Virus record (IMG/VR): IMGVR_UViG_3300009790_000099
Span: 1-21,029 of that record
Length of the DNA stretch: 21,029 nt
Reading direction: 5' to 3' (one strand)
From: a virus
The stretch's first letter is position 1. Each line of letters starts with the position of its first letter. Of this stretch, positions 518 to 21,029 are shown one piece after another. Under the pieces are notes generated by a model that saw only the letters and a program-made list of their open reading frames with translations, had not been told where the DNA came from and made no database searches. A program made the translations under genes and the position numbers.

Positions 518-1597
518 TCAAGCAGTTGTTGTTATAATTAATGTAGGTGAAGCTAGTTTTTTAGAAGCCGAGCTGGCAACACCATCAACACCATTCTGAT
601 CATGATCCCTATTCCGGTAATATCTTGAACTAAATAATCCTACTACATTATTTGTTCCATGCTCATTGCGAAATCTAGTGAAAATTGTGTTCGTATCTCC
701 TACCGGCCAATGTATTTTACCATCAGCTGCAGATGCAACTACATCACCAGGAGCCGAATCTAAACATTCGATAACAAATCTATTCCTATATTGTCCATTA
801 ATTTCAGTGGAATTAAGCTGATAATAATTAAACGAATTATCTATTGGTAGAAGTCCAGAAGGATAGTTGTAAACATCGCTTTCCTCGCTTGTGTTTTGGT
901 TGGAGTTGCTACCATCGATAACCTGTTCACTATCAAAGTTGTTGCCTTCTACTTTAAATCCGCTAGATCTTTTATCAACATATGCTAATGTTGACCAAAT
1001 CCCAAATGCATCCGAGTCTCCAAGATCTGGTGGTGGGTTAGTATTATCCCACCCTGCTTGATAATCAAAGTCATATATGATATATTTAATTCCCGTCGGC
1101 CGTGTAATTCGTACTGCGCCAATAACTTCTCCAGTATTAGTAGGCTTAGCTGATGTAGTAATATTTGGCATAACTACATTGCCTGATATTGAAGAAACAG
1201 TTTGACCTACGCATCTTCCTCCATATGTTTCAACTACCATTCCACTCTTGAAGACAGTATCGTTAACATGATCTTTAACAGCTTTAGATGTAGGAATTTT
1301 ATCATCAGAATCTTGAAGGCCTGATGCAGTAACGTCAATTTCGATTTGACTAACATTAGCAGTACTACCGCTTACATTACCTAGAAGCTTATTATCGCCT
1401 ACTTGTTCTATCTTACCAAGAGTTAGTGAATTATTATTAACATTAGATGTATTAACTTTTGTTTCTAAATTATCTAAAGCAGTAGCCTCTGTACTAATTT
1501 TTGTTATAATACCATTCGTCTTCTTCCTCCAACTAGAAAGTGTATCGCTAAGTTCTACACCATCGGTAGTAAAGGTGTCAAAATTTATAGAGTCCAT
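518..1597 (-). CDS. Fibre-like tail or baseplate appendage protein
   Basis: A 359-residue protein with the build of a phage fibre. Residues 1-55 are helical and Ser/Thr/Asn-rich. Residues 57-90 carry SLTLGKIEQVGDNKLLGNVSG, a repeat type typical of trimeric tail fibres. Residues 101-111 carry IPTSKAVKDHV, the IPTSKAV motif common in T4-like fibre shafts. From about residue 118 a separate beta-rich domain begins (VVETYGGRCVGQ) and runs to the C-terminus; it includes an acidic DHDQNGVDG stretch that looks like a calcium-binding loop. This could be the head or receptor-contacting domain, but I do not recognise it. The gene lies just downstream of the giant baseplate gene and the 62-residue gene, with a late-promoter-like octamer 5 bases before its ATG. 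An appendage role is well supported; the exact T4 equivalent is not known. Confidence 0.75.
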   Translation of the reverse strand: MDSINFDTFTTDGVELSDTLSSWRKKTNGIITKISTEATALDNLETKVNTSNVNNNSLTLGKIEQVGDNKLLGNVSGSTANVSQIEIDVTASGLQDSDDKIPTSKAVKDHVNDTVFKSGMVVETYGGRCVGQTVSSISGNVVMPNITTSAKPTNTGEVIGAVRITRPTGIKYIIYDFDYQAGWDNTNPPPDLGDSDAFGIWSTLAYVDKRSSGFKVEGNNFDSEQVIDGSNSNQNTSEESDVYNYPSGLLPIDNSFNYYQLNSTEINGQYRNRFVIECLDSAPGDVVASAADGKIHWPVGDTNTIFTRFRNEHGTNNVVGLFSSRYYRNRDHDQNGVDGVASSASKKLASPTLIITTTA

Positions 1598-1601
1598 GTT
1601 G

Positions 1602-1790
1602 CTATTTATCTAATATTAATGTGTTAAGTATTTTTTTCAGTCCGTTAATTTCAGCCCTTAAGTATTGAATTTCTTCTTCTTGGGATTGATGTTTTTGACT
1701 ATTTTTCTTTGCTATTATTCTTGCATTATAAGCCGACTCATCTTTATTAATAAGTACTCCTAGACCTTTTCTTATAAACTTACTTTCCAT
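1602..1790 (-). CDS. Small coiled-coil protein of unknown function
   Basis: A 62-residue basic protein. The N-terminal half (MESKFIRKGLGVLINKDESAYNARIIAKK) is followed by a predicted amphipathic helix at about residues 35-60 (EEEIQYLRAEINGLKKILNTL) with heptad-spaced Ile/Leu, so a short coiled coil is likely. Its ATG overlaps the stop codon of the 1881-residue gene by one base (TAATG), which suggests translational coupling and argues that this is a real gene. Its TAG stop overlaps the late-promoter-like octamer of the next gene. It lies between the giant baseplate protein and the fibre-like protein, so it may be a small structural linker or a chaperone for fibre assembly. That is inference from position only. 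No family is recognised. Confidence 0.7.
   Translation of the reverse strand: MESKFIRKGLGVLINKDESAYNARIIAKKNSQKHQSQEEEIQYLRAEINGLKKILNTLILDK
1603..1610 (-). promoter_or_regulatory. Candidate T4-type late promoter octamer (GATAAATA)
   Basis: Read on the minus strand this is GATAAATA, matching the NATAAATA form of the T4-like late promoter. It overlaps the TAG stop of the 62-residue gene and ends 5 bases before the ATG at 1597. The T4 consensus has T in the first position, so this is a weaker match. A transcript starting a few bases downstream would be leaderless or nearly so, which makes this less certain than a normally spaced site. Confidence 0.4.
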
Positions 1791-4700
1791 TATAGAGATG
1801 CAATAATTCTAAGGTTCTTAATTTCAGGAACGTGGGCTCGGTTCGAAGATCTAAATATAATCTTAATAGCAACTTGATCAAATTCTTCAGTGACTGAACC
1901 TGTATAATGTACTTCACCAAATTGATAGTTAGAACTTACTGGAACTTCACCATCTGTTTCAATCTTAGTCCATGGAATAGTATTAAAAGCATTACCGGAA
2001 GTTCTGTTAGCAAATCTAGCATAAACTTCAAGCGATGTAGATTCGTCTGGTCGAACAGCATCAAAGTAAACATCAACTTGATCAGAAGGATTTTCAAGTT
2101 TAACACTCTTCGTGATATACCTTGCAGCACACTGTCCGTCGTCCTCTGTTGTTTCAAACTCGTTTGAATCGTTAACAATACTATCAAATGTAACAAGTGA
2201 AATACGATCTAAGTCAACAACCGGAGAAATTTTAGGATCAGTCGTGGTAAGAGTAGCTTGAAGTTTTAACTGGTCTGCACCAGAACCATCATGAGCACTA
2301 GTAGAATCGTGTGTAACACGCTTACCTGTATAAATCAATTCTCCAGGAAATACTGTATATGCATCAGTCGCACTATCATTTAATGTATAATTAACATTTG
2401 ATTCTGGAAGGAGCATGTCTTGAATAATAGGAAGATATGCAGAAGCTTTCCAAACATCTTTTTCGGCAGTTGCCGCAGCAGTTGAAGTAGGAAGAAGGGT
2501 TTGTTCTGCATGTCCTACTGATCCTAAAGTTATTGCGGTTCCTCCTGCACTTGCACTTAGTTGTATTAATCGACTATGTGAAACTTCATTCCCATTAGAA
2601 TCAACAGTTTTCGCATGGTATTCGGTTCCCGACTGTAAATTTGTAATCGCAGATCCTCCGCTACCGTTCTTTTTATACGTAAACTTTTGTCCATTAACTG
2701 CTTCCATAACATTATCTGGAAGAATAATTCTATCATTAGTAGTGTCAACACCTGCTGCACTATTTACAATACTAATTTCACTAGGAGCGGCAATAGCAAC
2801 ATCAGGAACACCTGTGTAACCAACACCGTTTGTCACAACTTCAATATAGTCAATAACTCCTCCTTTTTTAACAAAGGCTTTAGCAGTTGCTTGTGTTGAA
2901 GCACCCGCAGCTGTTGTTCCTCCAATAGTTATTGCAGGAGGACCTGCAAGATAACCAGAACCTCCGTTAGTAACGTTAATATATGTGACTTGTCCTCTTT
3001 GCGGTGAAAGTCCAGTAAACAATCCTGTCTGAGAAGCAGTTTTAAATTCCGCACGGTTTAGTGTAAACTTAAGATCTTTATTTTGATCAGGTGTCCATGT
3101 TGAAGCATTCTGACTCTTAAGAAGAACACCCATATTAACGTTCTTATTAATTTTTTCACCGTTGGTTCCAACATCTGTACCGCCAACTTCAGCGTGCCAT
3201 ACACGATACCTTGCACTATTCGAAAGAAGAACAATTGCATATTCAACACCAGGTTGTAAATAAACTGGAGTATCAAACATGAACTTAGTTTCTCTGCTGG
3301 CATCAGCATTTGCAGTAACACCTGAAGGCCAGATGTCAGCAGGAAGTTTAGTTACCTTTGAAAATGGAATTGTCTTTTGTGTAGGAATACCGTTCTCAAC
3401 TGAAACAATACTAAGTTCAACAGGTAAGTTAGGATCTTTCCCTTGGAAGAAAATATCAACTGAAGAAAGGAAAATACCTGTAGGCTCATTTCCAATCATA
3501 AAGGTCTGTGCGACAGGATCCCTACGAACAACGCGCTCACTTATTAGAACGTTTCTTCTTTCTTGAAGACGTGTTCTTTCTAAGACAAGTTGACGTGTTG
3601 AAAGAATTGTTTGTTGGCGGGTTTCCAATAATCCTTTAGCATGGTAAGTACTTTCTGCAGCGGAAAGTTCTAGTACTCTATTATTGTTTGCATTATCGGT
3701 GAGTCTAACTTGCCGTGAACCTGTGCGGAACCTAAGAGTATCGTTATTAGGAATAACAAACCAACCATCAACTTCACCAGCAGAGTTTGAAACAATACCT
3801 GAAGATAAAGAGCCTGTTATAATATCGCTTCCTTGTTTACCTTCGTATCTTGCTACGTCTGTTCCTCCAGCGGCTGCAACACCACCTCCGAATTGAACAA
3901 ATGCTTCATCGTCAGTAGCGTAAGATGTAATGTTAACATCATCAAAATAAAGGAAGAAAGTAGTATTCGGCTTAAGCATACTTGCTTTAAAGTGAACCTT
4001 ACGTGAACGAATGAATGGAACGAACGTGATATTTAAGACTCTATCGTCGATCACTTCTCTTTGGAAGTTTTCTACAAGAGATGTTTGAATACCTTCACGC
4101 AGTTCTCTTCGGAATGTTCTACGGAGAGCTCGTCGCTGAGAGAGACGCTCATCTTCACTAAATGTGTCGGTTCTGTTAGTTCGCCGGCCGGAAGAAGTAA
4201 AGCCGGGTGACCATTCACTTTCCCATTCATTCCATTCTGTACCTAATATATTTGGATCGTTTGCAACTTGTTGCAGAATAGCACTATTATCACCGTCAAT
4301 ATTTGTAACAATTTCAGGAGCATTAGTAACATCTTTCCATTCATCACTAGATGGTGAAAGTTCAAGGTTACCACTCCATGTTGCAACGTCATAAGGATTA
4401 ACACTGATGTGATCTGAAGCAAATGGCTGATCAACTAATACCTTTTCAATAAAGTCAAGTGTAAGAGAGTTTTTGCGTTTTCCAGAATAAGAGGTTGTTG
4501 ATGAAATACTTTGTCCGTTCCAAGAAGTAACGGAAACACCATTTGCACCCATTCCGCTAATATAACTCCAACGAGCATTATCAGAAAGATACATTGGACG
4601 TCCCGTAAAGTTATCGCGATCAATTGCAGCACGATAACCAGCACTATTGGTATCTCCAACGCCGTGTCCTCTAAATGCATCAGTAATAATACCACCTTTA

Positions 4701-7435
4701 AATCTTGGAAGGCCATTACCGTCATTAATTTGTGTTTCAGCAGCTTCAGATTCTAATTGTGATAATGCCGTATAATATTCAAGATTATGAATACGCTGTT
4801 CAAGATCGCCGATATCCCTCATTGTATATCTACGATTGTTGGCTACTTCAATATCCAAATCATTAAGGGAATATAAATATCCTGGCTTATTAATTCTGTA
4901 AAGTATTAAAGAATCCGAAGGTATTTGTGGAAATACCGGACTTTCAGATGCATTACCTTTTACATATTTAAGTTCACCTAGCTGAGATAAAGCTATAATA
5001 TCCCTTCGTGCTTTATAGTAAGTAAATGTAATATCAGCAACTGAATTTGGTTTAGTCTCATTACCTTCAGTAGAAATTTCAATTGATTGTCTAAAGTCTA
5101 AACAATTTGATAATTTGAGATCTTCATATCGTGGAATATCTTCTAAATCAACAAGTGTTGAACCATTAGATTTATAGTATGAATTAGCTGCAAATACTCC
5201 AGGTGTTGTATGAGTATAATGATCAAAACTAACAACTACAGCTGCAGATCTTAAGCTTTGTGATCCTTTATAAACAACTTGTGAAAAACCATAATGCGTA
5301 TCAGTTTGTCCGCCAATTAATTCAAAATCGGAAACAGGTAAAGCATTTCCATTATGCGTTACACCGGTGATACTATATACATCGATTTTATTTAAAGTAA
5401 TAATATCACCATGACCTAAAGTCCGCGTTTCTGTATATGTTGAAGACGTTTGTGTTTTCTTTCCGAGGGGCATTTGTTCTTCAACTGGAGCAAACACAAC
5501 AATAGCTTTACTATTAGTAGTTTCAGGAGCAACACCACTCGCACGCCTAAGTTTAATTGTAGCAACCTGGCCGCTAATCGTAACATCCTTTGCAAATGTT
5601 TCACCTGCTGCGCTATCAGTTCCAGCTGATTCCTGAACAATTACATAATCATCTGGATCTGTGCTTGTAAAACTGTCACCACTAGCAGCAGTAATCGTAA
5701 TAGTTCCTGCAGTACCTGTACCAGGAGCTGAATAGCGCTTCTGAACAATACGTTCTGCATTTGTAATATCAACACTTTTTACATCATATCCTCCAAGAGG
5801 ATATACCATACGAGAAGCATTTTCGGCAATATCTTTGAGTTCAAACCCGCTGCTATTTTGTAAAACTGTATGTGTACCGGGTGTAGTAGTAGCAGGATTT
5901 AGAATAAGAGCTTTTGCATTACTAAGTTTTTTACCACTTAACAATTGTATGTCATAGATATAAAGTCTTTTAGAAGCTTGTACTGCGGTTGGTCCAGCAA
6001 CATTACTAATATTGTTAACATCAGTATTTTCAATTGCATGAATTCTGCAAGTACCAACTTGATCGTTAGCATTAGTAGAATCGTGCGCGCTAAAAAGTTT
6101 GTATTGTTTATTTGGTGCAAAATTGAAAGCACTAACATCAGCAATTACTAATTCACCATTTGAGTCAGTAAATGATCCTTCAATGAATTGTCCACGATTA
6201 ACTGATAACTTATAATTAGATTCAGTTCCTTGATCGGAAGATTCTCGTCCTTTATCGCAAACAACATCCTGTTTGTCTTCAAGCTCTACACGATAACCTT
6301 GGACATATGCAACTCCGGGTTCAACACCTACAACAAATCTTTTTTTACCCTCGGTCGTAGCAGTTGCAGTATCAGTAACATTTGGAAGAAGAGCATTTGC
6401 TTCTGAACCATTAAATATTTCAGCGGCTGTATATTTACCACGGTTACCAGCACCATCATTAAAGTATTCACGAACTTCGTTCTTAAATGGATTAATGACG
6501 TATGAACCACTTTCTTCTTGGGTTCTTTCTGCAAGTGCTTTACCAAGCTCGCTATATTCAGTCCGCGCTGGGTTAACAACTCTGTCTTCTTTAATATCAA
6601 GTAGTTTAATTCGCTGCTGTCCAGATGAAACACTTGTGTCGGTAGAAGAAATAAATTTAAGGTCTAGAGTAATCTTATAACGATCTGCACCTGGTGCATT
6701 TTCATTAGGTTCGCCATTAGCGTTATCTAAAAGTGAAGTATCTGTTGAACTTTCTACTATTGTTTCTGTTATATCAAAAACAGCAGTTCCAGTTAACTTA
6801 GAAACAACACCACTATTTACAGTCTTAGCAAAAAATGCTTCTGTTGCATCAGTATGAACAAAGTGTCCTTTAACAAAGAATACTCCGGCATCCTGGAAAA
6901 CAGCACCATGAAAACCAGCCGCCTCAACAGCTGTAAGATGAGTTGCAATTGTAGCAGTTGCAGTATATGTGTTTCCTGGTATTGTAATACTTGCTTCGCC
7001 TGCTGCTAGAGCTATAGAATCATTATTTGCGATTGTCCCTGCACCACCAATTAATTTTATATATAAGCGATAACCATCTGTCCCATCAGTTACTTTAATA
7101 GCACTAAGAATCTTTGCTCTCCAATTAGTTGATGTTATCTCTTTCCCCTTTAACGCTGTAAGTTGGGCTGCAGTAAGACTAGTTGATCCGTTCGCCCATG
7201 TGATTCCAATACTTTGGATAGAAGAATCATAATTAGTATATCCGTCTAATACACGATCTCCATCTTTAAAAATATGGCGACCAAATTTATCAATCTGATC
7301 TTGAATATTAGATTGAAGCTGATTCAGCTCTCTTACTTGAACGCTTCTACCCGGCCTAAAAAGAATTCTTAAATAATTCTTGTCCTGGCTAAAGTCATCA
7401 GAATAAGGAGCCGCAGAGTATGTGGTTATTGCCAT
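1790..7435 (-). CDS. Giant DUF4815-type baseplate/tail structural protein
   Basis: An 1881-residue protein, the largest in the window. The N-terminus (YSAAPYSDDF, then LRILFRPGRSVQVRELNQLQ at about 20-40) matches the start of the DUF4815 family found in large structural proteins of T4-like marine phages. At about 1085-1130 there is an Arg-rich helical stretch, followed near 1135-1165 by FIRSRKVHFKASMLKPNTTF, and near 1305 by RRDPVAQTFMI; both are recurring landmarks of these proteins. Two copies of a GYxxxP beta repeat lie near residues 1490 and 1540. The last 180 residues look like a beta-sandwich ending in EIKNLRIIASL. It follows gp8, so an outer-baseplate or proximal-fibre role, perhaps replacing T4 gp10 or gp7, is likely; the exact equivalence is unproven. 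Its stop overlaps the 62-residue gene by one base. Confidence 0.85.
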   Translation of the reverse strand: MAITTYSAAPYSDDFSQDKNYLRILFRPGRSVQVRELNQLQSNIQDQIDKFGRHIFKDGDRVLDGYTNYDSSIQSIGITWANGSTSLTAAQLTALKGKEITSTNWRAKILSAIKVTDGTDGYRLYIKLIGGAGTIANNDSIALAAGEASITIPGNTYTATATIATHLTAVEAAGFHGAVFQDAGVFFVKGHFVHTDATEAFFAKTVNSGVVSKLTGTAVFDITETIVESSTDTSLLDNANGEPNENAPGADRYKITLDLKFISSTDTSVSSGQQRIKLLDIKEDRVVNPARTEYSELGKALAERTQEESGSYVINPFKNEVREYFNDGAGNRGKYTAAEIFNGSEANALLPNVTDTATATTEGKKRFVVGVEPGVAYVQGYRVELEDKQDVVCDKGRESSDQGTESNYKLSVNRGQFIEGSFTDSNGELVIADVSAFNFAPNKQYKLFSAHDSTNANDQVGTCRIHAIENTDVNNISNVAGPTAVQASKRLYIYDIQLLSGKKLSNAKALILNPATTTPGTHTVLQNSSGFELKDIAENASRMVYPLGGYDVKSVDITNAERIVQKRYSAPGTGTAGTITITAASGDSFTSTDPDDYVIVQESAGTDSAAGETFAKDVTISGQVATIKLRRASGVAPETTNSKAIVVFAPVEEQMPLGKKTQTSSTYTETRTLGHGDIITLNKIDVYSITGVTHNGNALPVSDFELIGGQTDTHYGFSQVVYKGSQSLRSAAVVVSFDHYTHTTPGVFAANSYYKSNGSTLVDLEDIPRYEDLKLSNCLDFRQSIEISTEGNETKPNSVADITFTYYKARRDIIALSQLGELKYVKGNASESPVFPQIPSDSLILYRINKPGYLYSLNDLDIEVANNRRYTMRDIGDLEQRIHNLEYYTALSQLESEAAETQINDGNGLPRFKGGIITDAFRGHGVGDTNSAGYRAAIDRDNFTGRPMYLSDNARWSYISGMGANGVSVTSWNGQSISSTTSYSGKRKNSLTLDFIEKVLVDQPFASDHISVNPYDVATWSGNLELSPSSDEWKDVTNAPEIVTNIDGDNSAILQQVANDPNILGTEWNEWESEWSPGFTSSGRRTNRTDTFSEDERLSQRRALRRTFRRELREGIQTSLVENFQREVIDDRVLNITFVPFIRSRKVHFKASMLKPNTTFFLYFDDVNITSYATDDEAFVQFGGGVAAAGGTDVARYEGKQGSDIITGSLSSGIVSNSAGEVDGWFVIPNNDTLRFRTGSRQVRLTDNANNNRVLELSAAESTYHAKGLLETRQQTILSTRQLVLERTRLQERRNVLISERVVRRDPVAQTFMIGNEPTGIFLSSVDIFFQGKDPNLPVELSIVSVENGIPTQKTIPFSKVTKLPADIWPSGVTANADASRETKFMFDTPVYLQPGVEYAIVLLSNSARYRVWHAEVGGTDVGTNGEKINKNVNMGVLLKSQNASTWTPDQNKDLKFTLNRAEFKTASQTGLFTGLSPQRGQVTYINVTNGGSGYLAGPPAITIGGTTAAGASTQATAKAFVKKGGVIDYIEVVTNGVGYTGVPDVAIAAPSEISIVNSAAGVDTTNDRIILPDNVMEAVNGQKFTYKKNGSGGSAITNLQSGTEYHAKTVDSNGNEVSHSRLIQLSASAGGTAITLGSVGHAEQTLLPTSTAAATAEKDVWKASAYLPIIQDMLLPESNVNYTLNDSATDAYTVFPGELIYTGKRVTHDSTSAHDGSGADQLKLQATLTTTDPKISPVVDLDRISLVTFDSIVNDSNEFETTEDDGQCAARYITKSVKLENPSDQVDVYFDAVRPDESTSLEVYARFANRTSGNAFNTIPWTKIETDGEVPVSSNYQFGEVHYTGSVTEEFDQVAIKIIFRSSNRAHVPEIKNLRIIASL

Positions 7436-7441
7436 AAATCT

Positions 7442-7449
7442 TATTTATT
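7442..7449 (-). promoter_or_regulatory. Candidate T4-type late promoter octamer (AATAAATA)
   Basis: The minus strand reads AATAAATA, an NATAAATA match that overlaps the TAA stop of gp8 and ends 6 bases before the ATG at 7435. The first base departs from the T4 consensus. The close spacing to the ATG is the same as at three other genes here, which is the main reason to list it. Confidence 0.35.
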
Positions 7450-9113: not shown

Positions 9114-9121
9114 TATTTATA
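9114..9121 (-). promoter_or_regulatory. T4-type late promoter octamer, gp8-proximal
   Basis: The minus strand reads TATAAATA, an exact match to the T4 late promoter recognised by gp55-containing RNA polymerase. It ends 22 bases before the gp8 ATG at 9091, leaving room for a short leader. It lies in the 67-base gap between the 365-residue gene and gp8, the widest gap in the block. Confidence 0.75.
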
Positions 9122-9122
9122 A

Positions 9123-9130
9123 TATTTATA
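9123..9130 (-). promoter_or_regulatory. Second, tandem T4-type late promoter octamer upstream of gp8
   Basis: A second exact TATAAATA on the minus strand, one base upstream of the first octamer. Together they read TATAAATATTATAAATA. Either could be used; two copies 9 bases apart would give two transcript starts for gp8 and the downstream giant gene. Confidence 0.65.
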
Positions 9131-9158: not shown

Positions 9159-10256
9159 TTATGTGTTCTCCTTTGTTGTTATTTCAGGTAGTGGTTGTGG
9201 CGCGTCGACAGTCTCTAATCGACCTGCTGCGTATTCTTGTTGATATTCATTAATTAAAAGTGATAAAGGTACTTCAAATAAAGTTAGTTCCTGAAGTGTT
9301 GCGGGATCATCCCAGAATCCTCTAGTAAAGTATTGTTCAGCATTAATGCTGTTTGGCCAATTAGTATTAATAATATTAAGTATAACATGAATTATTACAC
9401 TTCGATCAAAGGAAGAATTGTTGGGATTATTAGGTTCTGAAGATCCATAATAATTTTCAAATGCAGCATCGATTAATTCTGCAATAGCAGTACTAAGCCA
9501 ACCTGGTTGATATCTAGGTGTATGATAACCTTCAGAGGGGTTAAAACTTCTTAATCTAGGAGGTCTTAAACTCTCAAGCCAATTATCTGGATCATCAACA
9601 GTGCCGGTATATGTTTGAAAATCTTCCCAGCGGTTTTCTAATACTGAGTGAATAAGAACTGAAACAAAAAATTTCATTCCGGCAGGATGGACTAAACGCC
9701 CAAATGAATCTATCCATCTCTCAGTAGACATAGCAGATTTTATTTGATAACTGAAATCTTGCCAAAAGTGTGAGTCTTGAATTTTATCAATCCCTGATAA
9801 ATCTCCATTTCGTTTAGTATAATCACTACTTGCTGTGTCGTAGGTTCCTGCAGATAGTTTAAATAAATTATCAGAAGGATAGTAGACCTCAATCATACTA
9901 TCAAACATTATTTGAAAAAATACATCAACACTTTCGGGCGTCCCTTTGATACGGTAATAATGAACTATTCTTTTGTAGAGTGTGTTTCTATCAACTACAT
10001 TTGAGTTAGGAACTACCTTCGCAATCTCCCCTTGAATAGCATCAAGGTATTTTTCACTTGTAACATCAATATCATTTTCGGCGATAGCATGTCCTAGTTC
10101 GTATGAAGCAAACCCTTCACGGTTCAAGTAATCATAGTACTCTTCCATGAAAGAAATCAAATTAGATGCTCCATCCCTGAGATACTGTGGGACGAGCTCT
10201 CTTACTTTAGATCTCTCGTGGTTTGGAGGTCTATAATTGGCAATCGATGTGTGCAT
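9159..10256 (-). CDS. Baseplate wedge-region structural protein of marine T4-like phages
   Basis: A 365-residue soluble protein with no signal peptide or membrane segment. The start is alpha-helical (SKVRELVPQYLRDGASNL). Residues 100-136 hold the clearest landmark, YRIKGTPESVDVFF followed by IMFDSMIEVYYP and LFKLSAGTY. I recall this pattern from virion structural proteins next to gp6 in marine T4-like phages. Its ATG overlaps the gp6 stop by one base (TAATG), so it is translationally coupled to gp6. It lies between gp6 and gp8, where T4 has gp7 (1032 residues); it may do part of gp7's job of linking the wedge, but it is much shorter and I see no clear gp7 similarity. The structural role is likely; the specific function is inferred. 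Confidence 0.75.
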   Translation of the reverse strand: MHTSIANYRPPNHERSKVRELVPQYLRDGASNLISFMEEYYDYLNREGFASYELGHAIAENDIDVTSEKYLDAIQGEIAKVVPNSNVVDRNTLYKRIVHYYRIKGTPESVDVFFQIMFDSMIEVYYPSDNLFKLSAGTYDTASSDYTKRNGDLSGIDKIQDSHFWQDFSYQIKSAMSTERWIDSFGRLVHPAGMKFFVSVLIHSVLENRWEDFQTYTGTVDDPDNWLESLRPPRLRSFNPSEGYHTPRYQPGWLSTAIAELIDAAFENYYGSSEPNNPNNSSFDRSVIIHVILNIINTNWPNSINAEQYFTRGFWDDPATLQELTLFEVPLSLLINEYQQEYAAGRLETVDAPQPLPEITTKENT

Positions 10257-12082: not shown

Positions 12083-12526
12083 TTAGCGGATTCTGTCGAG
12101 GTAGAAAGATACCTCGGTATTTATATTTGTATTTCTAATTTGAAAAACTATTGTTACGAGAAGGCGGTTATATTCTTGATCAAGTTGTACTTCTACTTTT
12201 GGGTTAGTGACTCTAGGCTCTCGTCTTTCGATGATCCTTAATATTTCATCTCTAATTCCCATAGCAGTAAACTGATCGGCATTCTCGAAAAGATAACGCG
12301 TTACATTAGCACCAAGTTCAGGATGAAATGGTCTATCAGAAAAATTACTTAAAACAAGAATCTTTACGGCCTGCCGGATAGCTTGAATGTCTGTAATAGG
12401 ACGAATATCTTTTGTATTGGGATGAGCAATAAAGTCAAGGGGGAGATCAGCAAAAAGGCCAGATTTATCAACCGTAGCGATTGATGGTACCTTCTCGTTA
12501 ACATTTAAATCTGATCTTAATCCCAT
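12083..12526 (-). CDS. 25: Baseplate wedge protein gp25
   Basis: A 147-residue member of the GPW/gp25 family (T4 gp25 is 132 residues). gp25 bridges the wedge core and the tail sheath and carries the family's EPR motif, seen here at residues 103-105 (RREPRVT). Other family landmarks are the helix ending in LVLSNFSDRPFHPELG (57-72) and VEVQLDQEYNRLLVTIVF in the C-terminal beta part. About 15 extra residues lie at the N-terminus. The gene sits between the 141-residue gene and gp6. A TATAAATA octamer ends 7 bases before its ATG and overlaps the previous stop codon, so this may be a short-leader or leaderless late transcript. No Shine-Dalgarno sequence is visible. Confidence 0.97.
   Translation of the reverse strand: MGLRSDLNVNEKVPSIATVDKSGLFADLPLDFIAHPNTKDIRPITDIQAIRQAVKILVLSNFSDRPFHPELGANVTRYLFENADQFTAMGIRDEILRIIERREPRVTNPKVEVQLDQEYNRLLVTIVFQIRNTNINTEVSFYLDRIR
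12118..12125 (-). promoter_or_regulatory. T4-type late promoter octamer inside gp25, upstream of gp6
   Basis: The minus strand reads TATAAATA within the last codons of gp25, ending 41 bases before the gp6 ATG. The match is exact and the distance suits an ordinary leader for gp6. It overlaps coding sequence (the NTNINTEV region), so part of the match may come from codon choice. Confidence 0.5.
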
Positions 12527-12533
12527 ATTATTC

Positions 12534-12541
12534 TATTTATA
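12534..12541 (-). promoter_or_regulatory. T4-type late promoter octamer upstream of gp25
   Basis: An exact TATAAATA on the minus strand. It contains the TAA stop of the 141-residue gene (12537-12539) and ends 7 bases before the gp25 ATG at 12526. If it is a promoter, the transcript would begin at or very near the ATG. Confidence 0.6.
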
Positions 12542-12962
12542 TAAAAATTACACCGTTTACCTCAGGAAGCTTACCTTCTCTTAATATTAACTCTTCGTAT
12601 AACCGAACACCTTCAGCAATATTAACCTCAGGCAGATAAAGCTTTTGGCTATCAATTTCAGGACAGGTCGTTGGATTCACGCTAAACAGGCCTATGCGTT
12701 CTGTCTCTTCCAAAAGGCCTGTTGAGGAATATGATTGTACAACAGTATTAAAGTTAGCATTCAGTTGAGAAGACTTCTTCATTATTGAAATAAAGTATAG
12801 CGCATACTCTTCTGGTTTACCACCATAAACCTTATGTTTGTTCCCATTGGCCGGAAGATAGCTGTTGAGCTTTGTCTTACGTACTTGATCAGAAATTGCA
12901 ACAGTAAGAAATTTCTCACGTACAATTCCGTTAATGTCTGGTTTTAAATATATATTTTTCAT
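12537..12962 (-). CDS. Conserved-position protein of unknown function between the peptidase-bearing protein and gp25
   Basis: I place the start at the ATG at 12960-12962, giving 141 residues beginning MKNIYLKPDINGIVRE. A longer reading from 13037 (166 residues) would overlap the upstream gene by 74 bases, and its extra 25 residues look like out-of-frame translation. With the shorter start the two genes are joined as TAAAATG, one base apart. The protein is soluble, has no signal peptide, and shows mixed short strands and helices, with VYGGKPEEYALYFISIMKKSS in the middle and an acidic C-terminal part ending EVNGVIFI. I do not recognise the family. Its place beside the hub genes and gp25 suggests a hub or wedge assembly factor, such as T4 gp26 or gp51, but no similarity to these can be shown here. 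Confidence 0.75.
   Translation of the reverse strand: MKNIYLKPDINGIVREKFLTVAISDQVRKTKLNSYLPANGNKHKVYGGKPEEYALYFISIMKKSSQLNANFNTVVQSYSSTGLLEETERIGLFSVNPTTCPEIDSQKLYLPEVNIAEGVRLYEELILREGKLPEVNGVIFI
12709..12728 (-). repeat. 20-bp dispersed repeat, copy 1 (in the 141-residue gene)
   Basis: The plus strand reads tccaaaaggcctgttgagga. It matches 14567-14586 at 19 of 20 bases in the same orientation. Here it encodes the SSTGLLE part of SYSSTGLLEETER. Confidence 0.6.
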
Positions 12963-12963
12963 T

Positions 12964-15678
12964 TTAAACTCGATTGTCGAAGGCTGAGGATAACCATTGC
13001 GGTGCATATTTTCTCCTATAGCTGCTGCCGCTTGCACCCCAACACGCTTTTGCGTATTTGTATGGACCTAAATGTGCAATATCTAAATGGAGGTTTCCAT
13101 TCATATAATCACTGTCGGCTCCTACAGAACCGATGCCATTCTTTAAAAGTATTAGTACAAACTCTCTTAGTGCAGCAATATCTCTAGAACTAGTGCTGGC
13201 CGCGTGTATTCTTCGTCCTTTGTCGTTATAAACACGGACGTCCGCTGCGTATCCTCCATCATGTCTTTTTCCACCAATTCTCCTCGTACCCCGGCCTGCG
13301 AAATCTTGTCCACCTGAGTATATCACAATACTATAATTTTTCTCAGCAGCAGAAGCTTCTAAGATTTTAAATAAAGCTGGTTGTATTTCTTGATTGCGAA
13401 TTGTACCTGTGGAATAGTTGTAACTTACCTTTCCTTTAGTTACAAATTTAAATTCTTCGGAGATCGCTGGTCCAATACTATCGTCGGCGGGGTCGCCTGT
13501 ATCACCAGCCACCGAGGAAGTTGATGTAGTCGTAGTTGAAGAAGATAAGCTTACATCTACATCTTCTATTTGAGGAAGCATAGTTCCTTCCACCCCAGCA
13601 GGTCCTCCCTGAGGCAATTCATCAGAATCTTGCTTGTCTTTAGTCTTATATTCAGAAGGCATGCCGACTTTAATAATCTCGACCGCGGATAATATATCTT
13701 CATTAAAGATTTGGTGCTTTATTGCGCCGATGAGTTTACCTTTTGTTGTGACATCGAGATATTCATAGTCGAACTCATCCATACGTGCAAAGACTGCATT
13801 AGGGTATTTAGATCCAATGTCTAATATTTCGTGTGGAGTCCAATATGATAGAGGATTGTCATCCGGGACAATAACAGTACTATCGGTAGACAGGAGTTTG
13901 TGTGTGATTTGTTTCTGGGCATCAGCTACAGCTTTTGATACCCATGTCGCTTTGTAAAGCCAATTAAAGACTTTAATTTCCTTTTCTTTCATCCTTGAAC
14001 CGAGATCTAAGCCAGGATCCTTTTTATTGTTGACCAACTCTAATAACCTTTGATAATCTGGTGTATTACGTAAATCATCAACATCCTTCTGATATCTTTC
14101 CATCTCCTCTATCAATGTAGAGTATGATTCCGAAAATCGAACCTTCCTCCATGCTTCATTATATTTTTCCCGTGCAGCCTCAGCCTTTTGAGGTGTATAA
14201 CCTGTAGTAGCCTGGGCTTCATCCTGAGGTGTAGCCTTTGACGGTATAGGAACATACGTACTCTGCTCAGGCACCTCAATAGCTTTCACAGGCACTGCCG
14301 GAAGCTCGGGCTTCTTCACCAAACTACCGTCGGCCGCTGTCTTTCCCTTAAGGCCAATCAATGAACATATGTCTATATCTAAGATATTATCTAAGTAACT
14401 AGTTACGTTATCAACCGCACCCTTCCACTTTTCGTTAATTATATCTATTGCATTAAAATTGCTGGGATCCAGACTCGCTATATCAGCAGCCAGATTTTGT
14501 ATCTGAGCCCCTTTTGGTAGGCTGTCTAATAAACGGTCCTTAAACCCCTCGAGCCTTTTCTCAATATCCAAAAGGCCTGCTGAGGATGCTGCTGATGCCA
14601 CTGCTGCTTTTAGCTCTTTAAGTTTTTCACTGATACCATCTGTTGCGATGCCTGGTATTTTTATATCGCCGGGAAATCCAACGCACTTTGTTGGATCTAA
14701 TCCTGGAACAACTGCTGCAACAACTGCTAATGCAGTAAGTGTATCTTCATAACTTGGTGTATCATCGAGACCATCTCCCGTCGTATCTCCCGGCACATCT
14801 CTATATTTTATTTGCGGTTGCATCGCTTCAACAGTAAATGGATAATCGTTTTCTATATCTGCTGTATTAGTATAATGTACCGCTGCATTATTCGATGTAT
14901 CATATGTCGGACCAAATAATGTTTTATAAGCACTGTTAGTCCCGTCATAAGTTCGATATATCCAATCTTTTTCTGCACCATATAACGTTTGAAATTGTTC
15001 GTATGTAGCAAATGGTGCAAATAAACCATATATGTAATCACTTAATTTACCATTGGCATTCGTTAATGGGTGCTGCGCAGTACCCCAACCAATTATCCAT
15101 GGTACAGTTGTAGCATTTGCTGTAGCAAAACCACCCCACACATTTGATGTTCTCCCCCACTTATCCGCGACAATTTCTTTATAGCTTCTATTAGCATCCC
15201 AGAAACCTGTCTTAAAACCAGCAGCAGTACCCTGTGCATGTATATTTTTATTTCCTACAGTTAATGGATAGTAAGGTCCATCGGTTATAAGAGTACTAGA
15301 CATCGGATCCTTGCCATCATCGCCTACCATTTTAACGTATGTTGAAAGAGCCGGATACTGTATTTCACCCACACTTCCATTCAATAATGCTGGATATGCA
15401 ATATTATTACCTAACTGATACTCTTCCTGGGGGTCTGGTACTACATCGATAAGTATATAAATTGCTTTCTTATCATATTCGCGATACCAACACCAAACAA
15501 AATTGCCGGTCCGCACTACAGTAGGGAATGTTGCAACACGATCCCAACCACTAATGATACTAGTATCATAAGACCATGTATTAATATAGCTATTTGTAAT
15601 ACCACGAGCAATCACTTCAGCGCTTCCCTTTGCACTGAGTGTTGTTGTTTGATATGGATAATTGACTTGTTTTGACAT
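12964..15678 (-). CDS. Large baseplate/tail protein with C-terminal M15-type peptidase domain
   Basis: A 904-residue multidomain protein. Residues 1-290 are aromatic and Gly-rich (FVWCWYREYDKKAIYILIDV). Near 296-307 is an Asp-rich DTTGDGLDDT loop of the calcium-binding type. Residues 360-580 are largely helical. An STTTTSTSS linker lies near 710-725. The last 160 residues form a candidate peptidase M15 domain: SGG at 788-790, the zinc motif H806-x6-D813 (RHDGGYAAD), and GSVG...NGNLHLDI with H864 and D866, the pattern of M15A/M15_2-type peptidoglycan peptidases. M15 enzymes are zinc peptidases that cut D-amino-acid-containing wall peptides. The gene follows the lysozyme-less gp5-like spike by 13 bases, so it probably supplies wall cutting during infection. 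The domain call is from motifs; the N-terminal parts are unrecognised. Confidence 0.82.
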   Translation of the reverse strand: MSKQVNYPYQTTTLSAKGSAEVIARGITNSYINTWSYDTSIISGWDRVATFPTVVRTGNFVWCWYREYDKKAIYILIDVVPDPQEEYQLGNNIAYPALLNGSVGEIQYPALSTYVKMVGDDGKDPMSSTLITDGPYYPLTVGNKNIHAQGTAAGFKTGFWDANRSYKEIVADKWGRTSNVWGGFATANATTVPWIIGWGTAQHPLTNANGKLSDYIYGLFAPFATYEQFQTLYGAEKDWIYRTYDGTNSAYKTLFGPTYDTSNNAAVHYTNTADIENDYPFTVEAMQPQIKYRDVPGDTTGDGLDDTPSYEDTLTALAVVAAVVPGLDPTKCVGFPGDIKIPGIATDGISEKLKELKAAVASAASSAGLLDIEKRLEGFKDRLLDSLPKGAQIQNLAADIASLDPSNFNAIDIINEKWKGAVDNVTSYLDNILDIDICSLIGLKGKTAADGSLVKKPELPAVPVKAIEVPEQSTYVPIPSKATPQDEAQATTGYTPQKAEAAREKYNEAWRKVRFSESYSTLIEEMERYQKDVDDLRNTPDYQRLLELVNNKKDPGLDLGSRMKEKEIKVFNWLYKATWVSKAVADAQKQITHKLLSTDSTVIVPDDNPLSYWTPHEILDIGSKYPNAVFARMDEFDYEYLDVTTKGKLIGAIKHQIFNEDILSAVEIIKVGMPSEYKTKDKQDSDELPQGGPAGVEGTMLPQIEDVDVSLSSSTTTTSTSSVAGDTGDPADDSIGPAISEEFKFVTKGKVSYNYSTGTIRNQEIQPALFKILEASAAEKNYSIVIYSGGQDFAGRGTRRIGGKRHDGGYAADVRVYNDKGRRIHAASTSSRDIAALREFVLILLKNGIGSVGADSDYMNGNLHLDIAHLGPYKYAKACWGASGSSYRRKYAPQWLSSAFDNRV
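14567..14586 (-). repeat. 20-bp dispersed repeat, copy 2 (in the peptidase-bearing gene)
   Basis: The plus strand reads tccaaaaggcctgctgagga, differing by one base from 12709-12728. It encodes the SSAGLLD part of ASSAGLLDIEKRL. The two copies lie about 1.86 kb apart in neighbouring genes. Confidence 0.6.
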
Positions 15679-18356: not shown

Positions 18357-19371
18357 TTAGCAAATGTTTAAATTCACGTGTAAACGATTCGATATATTGC
18401 GGTGATGTAGCCTTTATTGTTCTACGATCATCGTTTTCTTTTATCATATCATCATATATCGACACATAATTGGTTGCTTCAGGGCCAGCATTAAATTCAC
18501 TTATTTCTTCGGTAATATTTGTTGCATCATAATAATAAGCAGGAGCAAGAGAACCATCTTTCCAATATTGAGTAGATGTTAGTATATAGGTTGAATCTAA
18601 TTTATCGTCTGCCACAAGCTCGGATGATGAACCCGGCTGGAATCTTTCAGCAGATAACCTAACCTTATCAATAAAAGCGTTGCGGAGTGTATCTACTTGT
18701 GCAGTACCATCACTAATGAATTGTATAGTAAAATCTGCAGAATCTTCAGAATAAAACATCTCCGTCTTTGATCGTGACGAATACAATGTATCAAGTGTGC
18801 CACCATCACCAACTTGAGCATTAACTGTAGCTTCTTCAGAAAACCATGTAACATCACTATTATCAATCCAAATAAGTGACTTATTCGGATCATAATCTAC
18901 AATCTTAGCAGATGAAAAAACTTGTTGGTCAGTTTGGCCTTCTTTATCAATTATTTTGCATAGTCTCAAGTATGGCAAATACGATTCATTTTTTATAGGA
19001 ATTCCGAGTAATGTAGACCTATTTCCATTACTATTAAGTTGTCCAAAAGGGAACCTAAAGGCAGAAATGTTTTTATATTGATTCGCTAAATAGTTTTTAA
19101 TCTCAGAATCACCTTTCGGCCACGCTGTTATTCCATCTTTCAGACTATCGTTAGTAATAAAAAACGTCCAATAATAATCAGGTGTGCCATAAAGGCGATA
19201 TGAAAGTGTATCTGGTCGTTCGGAATCTAGAATATCAACAGCCGAATAAGCGTATGTATTTTGTGCCAGTCTATCAATAACATCAACGTATCGAAAATAG
19301 TCGGTAATTACACTTTGTATAGCGTTGTTCTCTATACTATATTGTGTTTTGGGGAATTGATTAAAAAACAT
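18349..19371 (-). CDS. 53: Baseplate wedge protein gp53, extended
   Basis: A 340-residue protein related to T4 gp53 (196 residues), the wedge subunit that joins the wedge to the hub. The N-terminus (FFNQFPKTQYSI, then ITDYFRYVDVIDRL) and the block YRLYGTPDYYWTFFITND at residues 58-75 match the gp53 pattern IYGNPQLYWVLLMCND. About 140 residues beyond the usual length follow the core. This extra part contains a YDPNKSLIWIDN strand pair near 165 and a FQPGSSSELVAD segment near 240; it is not a recognised domain and no signal or membrane segment is seen. The gene starts 12 bases after the gp48-like stop and overlaps the hub gene by 8 bases. No Shine-Dalgarno sequence is visible before the ATG (GTAAAATAATATG). 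The gp53 call is firm; the role of the extension is unknown. Confidence 0.88.
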   Translation of the reverse strand: MFFNQFPKTQYSIENNAIQSVITDYFRYVDVIDRLAQNTYAYSAVDILDSERPDTLSYRLYGTPDYYWTFFITNDSLKDGITAWPKGDSEIKNYLANQYKNISAFRFPFGQLNSNGNRSTLLGIPIKNESYLPYLRLCKIIDKEGQTDQQVFSSAKIVDYDPNKSLIWIDNSDVTWFSEEATVNAQVGDGGTLDTLYSSRSKTEMFYSEDSADFTIQFISDGTAQVDTLRNAFIDKVRLSAERFQPGSSSELVADDKLDSTYILTSTQYWKDGSLAPAYYYDATNITEEISEFNAGPEATNYVSIYDDMIKENDDRRTIKATSPQYIESFTREFKHLLNE

Positions 19372-20489: not shown

Positions 20490-20497
20490 TATAAATA
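20490..20497 (+). promoter_or_regulatory. T4-type late promoter octamer for gp4
   Basis: An exact TATAAATA on the plus strand, ending 28 bases before the gp4 ATG at 20526. It lies in the 59-base divergent gap and faces a matching minus-strand octamer 12 bases away. Confidence 0.7.
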
Positions 20498-20509
20498 AGT
20501 ATTTAGTGT

Positions 20510-20517
20510 TATTTATA
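20510..20517 (-). promoter_or_regulatory. T4-type late promoter octamer for the minus-strand baseplate block
   Basis: The minus strand reads an exact TATAAATA, ending 43 bases before the ATG at 20466. It is the likely main start of the gp48-gp53-hub-spike transcript. With the plus-strand octamer it forms an inverted pair with a 12-base spacer. Confidence 0.72.
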
Positions 20518-20525
20518 ACAAAACC

Positions 20526-20966
20526 ATGGCTTATTCTGGGCGATATAGAGTAAAGAATCCAAAAAAATATGAGGGTGATTTTAACAAAGTCAAATATAGA
20601 TCTCTATGGGAAAGACAGACATTTAAATGGTTGGATAATAATCCAGGAATAATAGGTTGGTCTTCCGAAGAAGTTGTTATACCTTATAGATGTAAGACTG
20701 ATGGTAAAGTGCATCGCTATTTTGTAGATCTATTTATTCGTACAAAAGATGGTAAAGTCTTTCTAATAGAAATCAAACCTAAAAAGCAAACGCTTCCTCC
20801 TAAAAAACCCGGCCGTAAAACTAAAAGGTATCTTACAGAAGTATTAACGTACGCTAAAAACCAATCAAAGTGGGAAGCCGCTACAGCATACGCAAACAAG
20901 TATGGGATGACATTTGAAATATGGCATGAAGACACTTTAAGGTCATTTGGTATAAAAATCCTATAA
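20526..20966 (+). CDS. 4: Head completion nuclease gp4
   Basis: A 146-residue protein matching T4 gp4 (gp50/65, about 150 residues), needed to finish the DNA-filled head before tail joining. The N-terminus GRYRVKNPKKYEGD and the block YRSLWERQTFKWLDNNP (24-40), then WSSEEVVIPY (45-54), are characteristic. The nuclease core of the TnsA-like PD-(D/E)xK type is visible: Glu29 in the SLWER helix, Asp68 in HRYFVDLFI, and Glu82/Lys84 in LIEIKP. The proline usual before the Asp is replaced by valine. It is the only complete gene on the plus strand and diverges from the gp48-like gene. No Shine-Dalgarno sequence precedes the ATG (AACAAAACCATGG). A second gene begins 9 bases after its stop, probably in the same transcript. 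Confidence 0.94.
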   Translation: MAYSGRYRVKNPKKYEGDFNKVKYRSLWERQTFKWLDNNPGIIGWSSEEVVIPYRCKTDGKVHRYFVDLFIRTKDGKVFLIEIKPKKQTLPPKKPGRKTKRYLTEVLTYAKNQSKWEAATAYANKYGMTFEIWHEDTLRSFGIKIL

Positions 20967-20969
20967 ATA
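20962..20969 (+). promoter_or_regulatory. T4-type late promoter octamer overlapping the gp4 stop
   Basis: An exact TATAAATA on the plus strand. It contains the gp4 TAA stop (20964-20966) and ends 6 bases before the ATG of the next gene at 20976. The arrangement mirrors that at gp25. Confidence 0.55.
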
Positions 20970-20975
20970 GAGTTA

Positions 20976-21029
20976 ATGGCCACGTTTATTAATAGGATCG
21001 AAAATAGAGCAACTCTTGCTGGTATTGAA
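20976..21029 (+). CDS. Partial gene of unknown function downstream of gp4
   Basis: Eighteen codons are visible before the right edge, reading MATFINRIENRATLAGIE, with no stop. The frame opens 9 bases after the gp4 stop in the same direction, and a TATAAATA octamer lies just before it. In T4 the genes next to gene 4 encode other head and tail completion proteins (gp2, gp3, gp53), so a completion role is possible. Too little sequence is present to identify it. Confidence 0.5.
   Translation, partial: MATFINRIENRATLAGIE

Follow-up and report, generated by a model that had tools for sequence, protein, structure and literature searches.

In phage T4 the late-promoter octamer is described as spanning positions -13 to -6 (PMC1524935), about one helical turn upstream of the transcription start and with AT-rich sequence just downstream (PMC2988020). 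With an octamer at -13 to -6, the A of an ATG that follows after a 5-nt spacer coincides with +1. The lambda cI message is an example of a leaderless mRNA, and mycobacterial genes include leaderless ones. Phage transcripts are often leaderless according to a remark made in passing in the paper on phage AR9 (PMC5312081). In a survey of pelagimyophages, the method used to predict late promoters in cyanophages is reported to have had no success on the pelagimyophage genomes (PMC7029224), and the authors of the Melnitz genome, where they count 15 late promoters by motif, make no remark there on leaderless starts (PMC9004378). The word "leaderless" appears in the Mosig and Melnitz papers in a reference only. 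Here we compare a viral sequence and its relatives and propose that T4-type late promoters placed such that leaderless or near-leaderless late mRNAs are predicted represent a real and widespread arrangement. We did not find it in print, as a search of the open-licence literature returned no prior report of leaderless T4-type late transcripts, although absence there is weak evidence.

Materials and methods

Octamers were counted in three groups of sequences. The clade of the window comprises 12 contigs, several of them fragments, with 456 called genes; the pelagi/OM43 group comprises four genomes (HTVC008M, Mosig, Melnitz and G015) with 722 genes; and the leadered group comprises seven sequences (50 kb of T4, KVP40, S-PM2, C48C1, G012, AG-345-L05 and XG4) with 1367 genes. 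The Rhodothermus phage RM378 served as a yardstick for a host that does not use Shine-Dalgarno (SD) motifs and was kept out of the pooled groups, and contigs G013, G014 and G016 are outside all counts. Genes were called with a simple script that admits ATG starts only; in HTVC008M the called start of the octamer genes is the annotated start in 15 of 15 cases. The clade contigs are related to one another, and the 78 clade and 30 pelagi/OM43 genes with a near octamer (4-9 nt before the start) fall into 44 families, 6 of which occur in both groups. Because G001, G003, G006, G007 and G008 were chosen for length among the gp4 relatives after the gp4 junction had been seen, one junction per contig is a biased draw.

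Results

The window analysed here is the whole of the 21,029-base IMG/VR virus record IMGVR_UViG_3300009790_000099, a T4-like phage region for baseplate and head completion that includes relatives of gp25, gp6, the hub/lysozyme protein, the tube cap and gp4. No near relative was found by megablast against 50,697 phage records. By gp8 and gp6 the nearest isolates are C48C1, the Pelagibacter phages HTVC008M and Mosig, and the Methylophilales/OM43 phage Melnitz, all below 60% identity; by gp25, cyanophages are on top among the matches listed. PF04965 (gp25-type protein) is present in 13 of 14 related records. The features that matter for the argument are the following.

518..1597, minus strand: ORF of 359 aa with no PHROG match (E 0.001); late gene predicted to be leaderless
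1603-1610, minus strand: late-promoter octamer GATAAATA; ATG 1597, spacer 5; the stop TAG 1602-1604 is the octamer's last two bases plus base 1602
1790..7435, minus strand: 1881-aa protein of unknown function (phrog_358); late gene predicted to be near-leaderless
7442-7449, minus strand: octamer AATAAATA; ATG 7435, spacer 6; the stop TAA 7448-7450 overlaps the 5' edge of the octamer
9114..9130, minus strand: two octamers, with cores at 9114-9120 and 9123-9129, lying 22 and 31 nt upstream of ATG 9091 of the baseplate wedge gene; leadered geometry, without SD motif
12083..12526, minus strand: gp25-type baseplate wedge protein (phrog_261, 2e-36)
12534-12541, minus strand: octamer TATAAATA; ATG 12526, spacer 7; stop TAA 12537-12539 within the octamer
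20490..20497, plus strand: octamer TATAAATA, 28 nt ahead of gp4; leadered geometry
20510..20517, minus strand: octamer 43 nt ahead of the tube-cap ATG 20466; faces the gp4 octamer
20526..20966, plus strand: gp4-type head closure protein (phrog_218, 7e-57), upstream of the fourth junction
20962-20969, plus strand: octamer TATAAATA; ATG 20976, spacer 6; stop TAA 20964-20966 within the octamer
20976..21029, plus strand: start of the next gene, cut off by the end of the window; by synteny probably a gp2 (DNA end protector) orthologue

At all four junctions NATAAATA lies 5, 6, 7 and 6 nt ahead of the ATG and overlaps the upstream stop, exactly where the initial annotation had placed four octamers that overlap stop codons and end 5-7 bases before an ATG. 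The window holds 14 octamers: these four, five at 22-43 nt before a start (at 9114, 9123, 20491 and 20510, and at 12118 inside the gp25 gene), and five that have no start considered here within 60 nt. Of the 15 called starts, 3 have an octamer 4-9 nt upstream, compared with 0.1 on average and at most 1 in 100 shuffles; the gene at the fourth junction, being cut by the end of the window, is uncalled and absent from this count. Over-representation of the octamer in the window as a whole was considered and rejected (14 observed, 11.8 expected, 14 reached in 33 of 100 shuffles). Clade genes at the gp2 position cluster with HTVC008M 18392-18916, which is annotated as DNA end protector, and members of the phrog_358 family are preceded by a near octamer in six clade contigs, the window included.

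Several features of the window stand apart from these junctions. The octamers at 20490-20517 face each other at a distance of 12 bases within the 59-base gap between gp4 (plus strand) and the tube-cap gene (minus strand), such that the two late transcripts would cross, and in T4 a comparable pair separates genes 4 and 53. The gene at 12964-15678, which lies between the hub/lysozyme gene and gp25, encodes a 904-aa protein without PHROG match; G002, G003 and G004 encode proteins of 714-899 aa directly upstream of gp25 that have no match to reference phages. The listed GTG start of the ORF upstream of gp25 (12537-13037) overlaps the 904-aa gene by 74 bases, and the true start of this ORF may be further downstream.

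Octamer-to-ATG distances were counted in the window and its relatives against shuffled controls, as the initial annotation had proposed, and they exceed these controls clearly: in the clade, called starts are preceded at 4-9 nt by 79 octamers, compared with 3.5 expected from the summed shuffled means. Each of the 12 clade contigs is above the maximum of its 100 shuffles (observed 3-20, maxima 1-4), the closest being G009 with 3 against 2. The same holds for HTVC008M, Mosig and G015 (11, 7 and 9 against maxima of 4, 5 and 3), whereas Melnitz taken alone is within its shuffles (3 observed, mean 0.7, maximum 4), all three of its octamers being at exactly 5 nt. In the clade, the numbers at spacers of 0 to 3 are 0, 1, 0 and 0, followed by 4, 26, 22, 11, 8 and 8 at spacers of 4 to 9. 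The pelagi/OM43 group has 30 octamers at 4-9 nt, with 25 at a spacer of exactly 5; the leadered group has 1 at 4-9 nt and 112 at 14-40 nt. Spacers below 4 are nearly absent, numbering 1 in the clade and 2 in the pelagi/OM43 group, which is expected if the transcript has to include the ATG. The spacing is looser in the clade, mostly 5 to 9, than in the SD-using pelagi/OM43 group, where it is sharp at 5; such a sharp optimum would be in line with ribosomes that otherwise use SD motifs and require the AUG more strictly at the 5' terminus. The enrichment is specific to genuine starts, with an octamer 4-9 nt upstream of 78/454 start ATGs but only 24/17131 other ATGs in the clade, and of 30/720 but only 21/22058 in the pelagi/OM43 group. 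It is also specific to the motif: among 20 permuted 7-mers the best reaches 44 in the clade (TAAATAA, which overlaps the motif) and the next 26, and in the pelagi/OM43 group the best reaches 9 compared with 30 for the octamer.

At gp25 the octamer is unchanged in all 29 sequences compared (17 of them distinct), while the spacer is 5, 6, 7 or 8 nt; some upstream coding positions are also unchanged in this set, and the contrast is that between octamer and spacer. Left out of this count are six of the 34 gp25 loci retrieved, namely L030, which is without its 5' end, L031 (66% identity), where the octamer is 8 nt ahead of an ATG, and L032-L035 (39-47% identity), which show no octamer within the 60 nt inspected upstream of a guessed start. 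Among the best 80 of 241 gp25 loci of the HTVC008M lineage, HTVC008M included, the octamer is 5-9 nt from the ATG in 80/80, with 42 distinct upstream sequences. At the gp4 junction the best 80 of 598 IMG/VR relatives have an octamer 5-9 nt before an ATG in 45 cases, 28 of these at exactly 5, in a count that accepts any ATG and leaves the gene opening at each locus unverified; the remaining 35 are L073, L074, L079 and L083-L115 except L091. Upstream of gp4 itself, the 31 distant loci L084-L115 except L091 carry CTAAATA within 50 nt in 23 cases, ATAAATA only in 3 and neither in 5, and CTAAATA is described as a late-promoter variant of phage Aeh1 (PMC1524935).

The gp25 spacer is 7 nt in the window, 5 in HTVC008M and 20 in C48C1. 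By gp17 and gp55, clade contigs G001 and G011 are nearer to the leadered C48C1 than to HTVC008M, and HTVC008M is nearer to the leadered G012 than to G001 and G011. Because these affinities cross between leadered and leaderless phages, repeated gain or loss of the leaderless form is probable, as judged from gp17/gp55 similarities rather than from a tree.

The overlap with the upstream stop is far more variable than the spacing. Within the window alone the stop takes three registers relative to the octamer (at its 3' edge, at its 5' edge and twice inside). At the gp4 junction it overlaps the octamer in 8 of the 45 octamer-bearing relatives and lies 0-9 nt upstream of it in the other 37. When near-octamer genes with a same-strand upstream gene are considered, the stop overlaps in 29/74 in the clade and in 2/22 in the pelagi/OM43 group, where 20/22 are without overlap. 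Fusion of stop and promoter as one unit is contradicted by this drift of the stop at conserved octamer-to-ATG spacing.

The base before the ATG also fits a transcription start. At a spacer of 5, pyrimidines occupy position -1 at 50 of 51 sites in both groups together, as opposed to 469/847 other genes (clade, 26/26 versus 195/293; pelagi/OM43, 24/25 versus 274/554), and a pyrimidine-purine step is common at bacterial transcription starts. No clear purine preference is seen at the sixth base after the octamer where this base falls in the spacer (R 0.49 of 53). Spacers of 6-9 nt, the clade majority (49/79), would give leaders of 1-4 nt if the T4 offset is strict.

SD motifs separate two kinds of late genes in the pelagi/OM43 group: they are present in 3/30 near-octamer genes but in 40/43 leadered octamer genes (14-40 nt; Fisher 2e-13), and 372/647 of the other genes use them. 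In the clade none of the 78 near-octamer genes has an SD motif. We dropped this absence as proof of leaderlessness there, since clade genes in general hardly use SD motifs; among genes without an octamer they occur in 27/342, with about 19 expected, and most of the excess is from G011 (7/22), a partial exception. RM378 likewise makes little use of SD motifs (25/136 compared with 19.2 expected), and it has no octamer at 4-9 nt. The contrast between leader with SD and no leader holds cleanly for both the pelagi/OM43 group and T4 (12/13) but not for cyanophage-like genomes, which are often without SD; in the leadered group, 46/109 octamer genes have an SD motif. Near-octamer genes are enriched as first gene on their strand in the pelagi/OM43 group (8/30 versus 40/690) but not in the clade (4/78 versus 39/375).

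Relatives of gp55, gp33 and gp45 are all encoded in clade contig G001, with gp55 also in G011 and gp33 relatives in six contigs (G001, G002, G003, G006, G007 and G008). None of the three has a match in the window, a 21-kb fragment of the phage, and the presence of this machinery applies to the clade only. The genes of the window are mostly baseplate and head genes, and in keeping with T4-type late promoters a TATAAATA-like octamer is present and placed before virion genes. In HTVC008M, structural genes make up 10/15 octamer genes compared with 25/183 of the rest (p 1.4e-5, based on the annotation with labels assigned by the author), and 6/11 when near-octamer genes are taken alone.

Discussion

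How could a promoter come to sit so close to a start codon? We consider it likely, with a probability of about 0.78, that gp55-type late promoters are placed such that leaderless or near-leaderless late mRNAs arise. The four octamers of the window would be late promoters of the T4 type, recognized by the host RNA polymerase with the phage sigma factor gp55 bound to it, transcription would start at the A of the ATG or 1-4 nt before it, and the resulting late mRNA would not have the octamer-to-ATG leader with SD motif that T4 has; the ribosome is assumed to recognize an AUG at or next to the 5' end. Direct observations are where the octamers lie and how they are spaced and conserved, the specificity of the motif, the preference for a pyrimidine at -1, the lack of SD motifs and the gp55, gp33 and gp45 relatives in the clade. 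The start site is carried over from T4, and promoter activity and translation of leaderless RNA are inferred as well. The suggestion of the initial annotation that the late transcripts would be leaderless or nearly so is strongly supported by the comparative sequence evidence from spacing, SD usage and the pyrimidine at -1.

It is conceivable that an AT-rich genome with TAA stops and short intergenic gaps places octamers before ATGs by chance, and the total octamer count of the window is indeed at expectation, as is Melnitz within its own shuffles. Such an origin can practically be dismissed, however, as all clade contigs along with HTVC008M, Mosig and G015 surpass their shuffle maxima and the octamer is present at every one of the 80 gp25 loci of the HTVC008M lineage. 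Hardly more credible is a single compact stop-promoter-start element conserved as a whole, which the initial annotation had entertained on the grounds that the stop is overlapped at 4/4 junctions of the window. Such overlap recurs in the clade (29/74), but the register varies already within the window and the stop is separate from the octamer in 37/45 gp4-junction relatives and 20/22 pelagi/OM43 genes with the spacing kept. Judged from these counts, the stop-octamer fusion is incidental and the true signal is the octamer-to-ATG distance. The overlap would be a by-product of tight gene packing, facilitated because ATAAATA contains TAA.

The other possibility raised initially, an AU-rich signal that only resembles a promoter, is disfavoured as well. 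In its most explicit form, an A at -3, -6 and -12/-13 aids initiation in a host that does not use SD motifs, akin to a Kozak sequence, and the promoter look is coincidental. Flavobacterium johnsoniae is described to use A-3, A-6, A-12 and A-13 (PMC6847099), ATAAATA at a spacer of 5 supplies A-6 and A-12, and clade genes without octamer hardly use SD motifs and are A-rich at -6 and -3, HTVC008M also being A-rich at -3. Nevertheless, we regard this as improbable: the exact 7-mer beats 20 letter permutations of equal A content, the same spacing recurs in the pelagi/OM43 phages whose other genes do use SD motifs, and T4 and other relatives keep the octamer 14-40 nt upstream. The lower edge of the spacing also coincides with the T4 start offset, a pyrimidine is preferred at -1, and the gp25 spacer shifts by single bases while the octamer is unchanged. 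A Kozak-like signal leaves the SD-using group, the sequence specificity and the leadered relatives unexplained, although a secondary contribution of this kind could add something in the clade of the window. A less remote scenario, if still a doubtful one, is dual use, in which the octamer is a promoter for leaderless mRNA and also enhances translation on mRNAs that read through from upstream promoters. Such read-through mRNAs are likely in the clade, where 74/78 near-octamer genes follow another gene on the same strand within 400 nt, and A-6 and A-12 again coincide at a spacer of 5, but the promoter part alone suffices to explain the spacing.

The scarcity of SD motifs and the A-rich -6 and -3 positions suggest that the host of the clade does not use SD motifs and is perhaps a member of the Bacteroidota, as A-rich -6 and -3 positions are described to help initiation in Flavobacterium (PMC6847099). 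Clade contigs G001 and G003 yielded four tRNA genes. The only direct host lead is a tRNA-Tyr pattern that matched five genome contigs, titled Verrucomicrobiota (4) and Neomarinimicrobiota (1). When 10 chosen clade proteins were searched against Pfam, the matches were to a cytosine methylase and to repeat domains, plus one that fell below the cut-off.

All four phages with bimodal late-promoter spacing encode ribosomal protein bS21 (HTVC008M 91228-91431, G015 64028-64225, Mosig 9980-10141 and Melnitz 35455-35628). With the HTVC008M copy as query (tblastn, E 0.01), neither the window nor RM378 gave a match, nor did any of the seven leadered sequences or of the clade contigs, which are mostly fragments. 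It is tempting, but a long shot, to speculate that marine T4-like phages of streamlined or SD-less hosts use one sigma factor for a leaderless and a leadered class of late mRNA, that leaderlessness acts as a late translational switch and that in the pelagi/OM43 group phage bS21 may adjust ribosomes towards either SD-led or leaderless messages.

If leaderless late transcription by gp55-type promoters is true, widespread ocean phages, including cultured SAR11 and OM43 phages, make several virion proteins from leaderless mRNAs. It would provide a simple rule for finding late promoters, namely an octamer 5 nt before an ATG, and turn HTVC008M-type genomes into a natural internal comparison of SD-led and apparently leaderless late genes within one promoter class.

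Among the closest known systems is the gp55/gp33/gp45-dependent T4 late promoter (TATAAATA), with which the arrangement described here shares the octamer, the AT-rich sequence just downstream and the position before virion genes, along with the gp55, gp33 and gp45 relatives in G001. It differs in geometry: 50 kb of T4 hold 13 called genes with an octamer 12-35 nt before the ATG, 12 of them with an SD motif, whereas here the distance is mostly 5-7 nt and there is no SD motif. The cyanophage late promoters NATAAATA of S-PM2 and Syn9 are described as an octamer with a variable first base, as here (PMC2984593). S-PM2 differs, however, in that none of its octamers is at 4-9 nt, compared with 23 at 14-40 nt. 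The likeness to leaderless mRNAs lies in the A of the AUG, predicted to be at or near +1, and in the missing SD motif; what sets the present case apart is the prediction that a single dedicated phage sigma factor directs such mRNAs for many genes.
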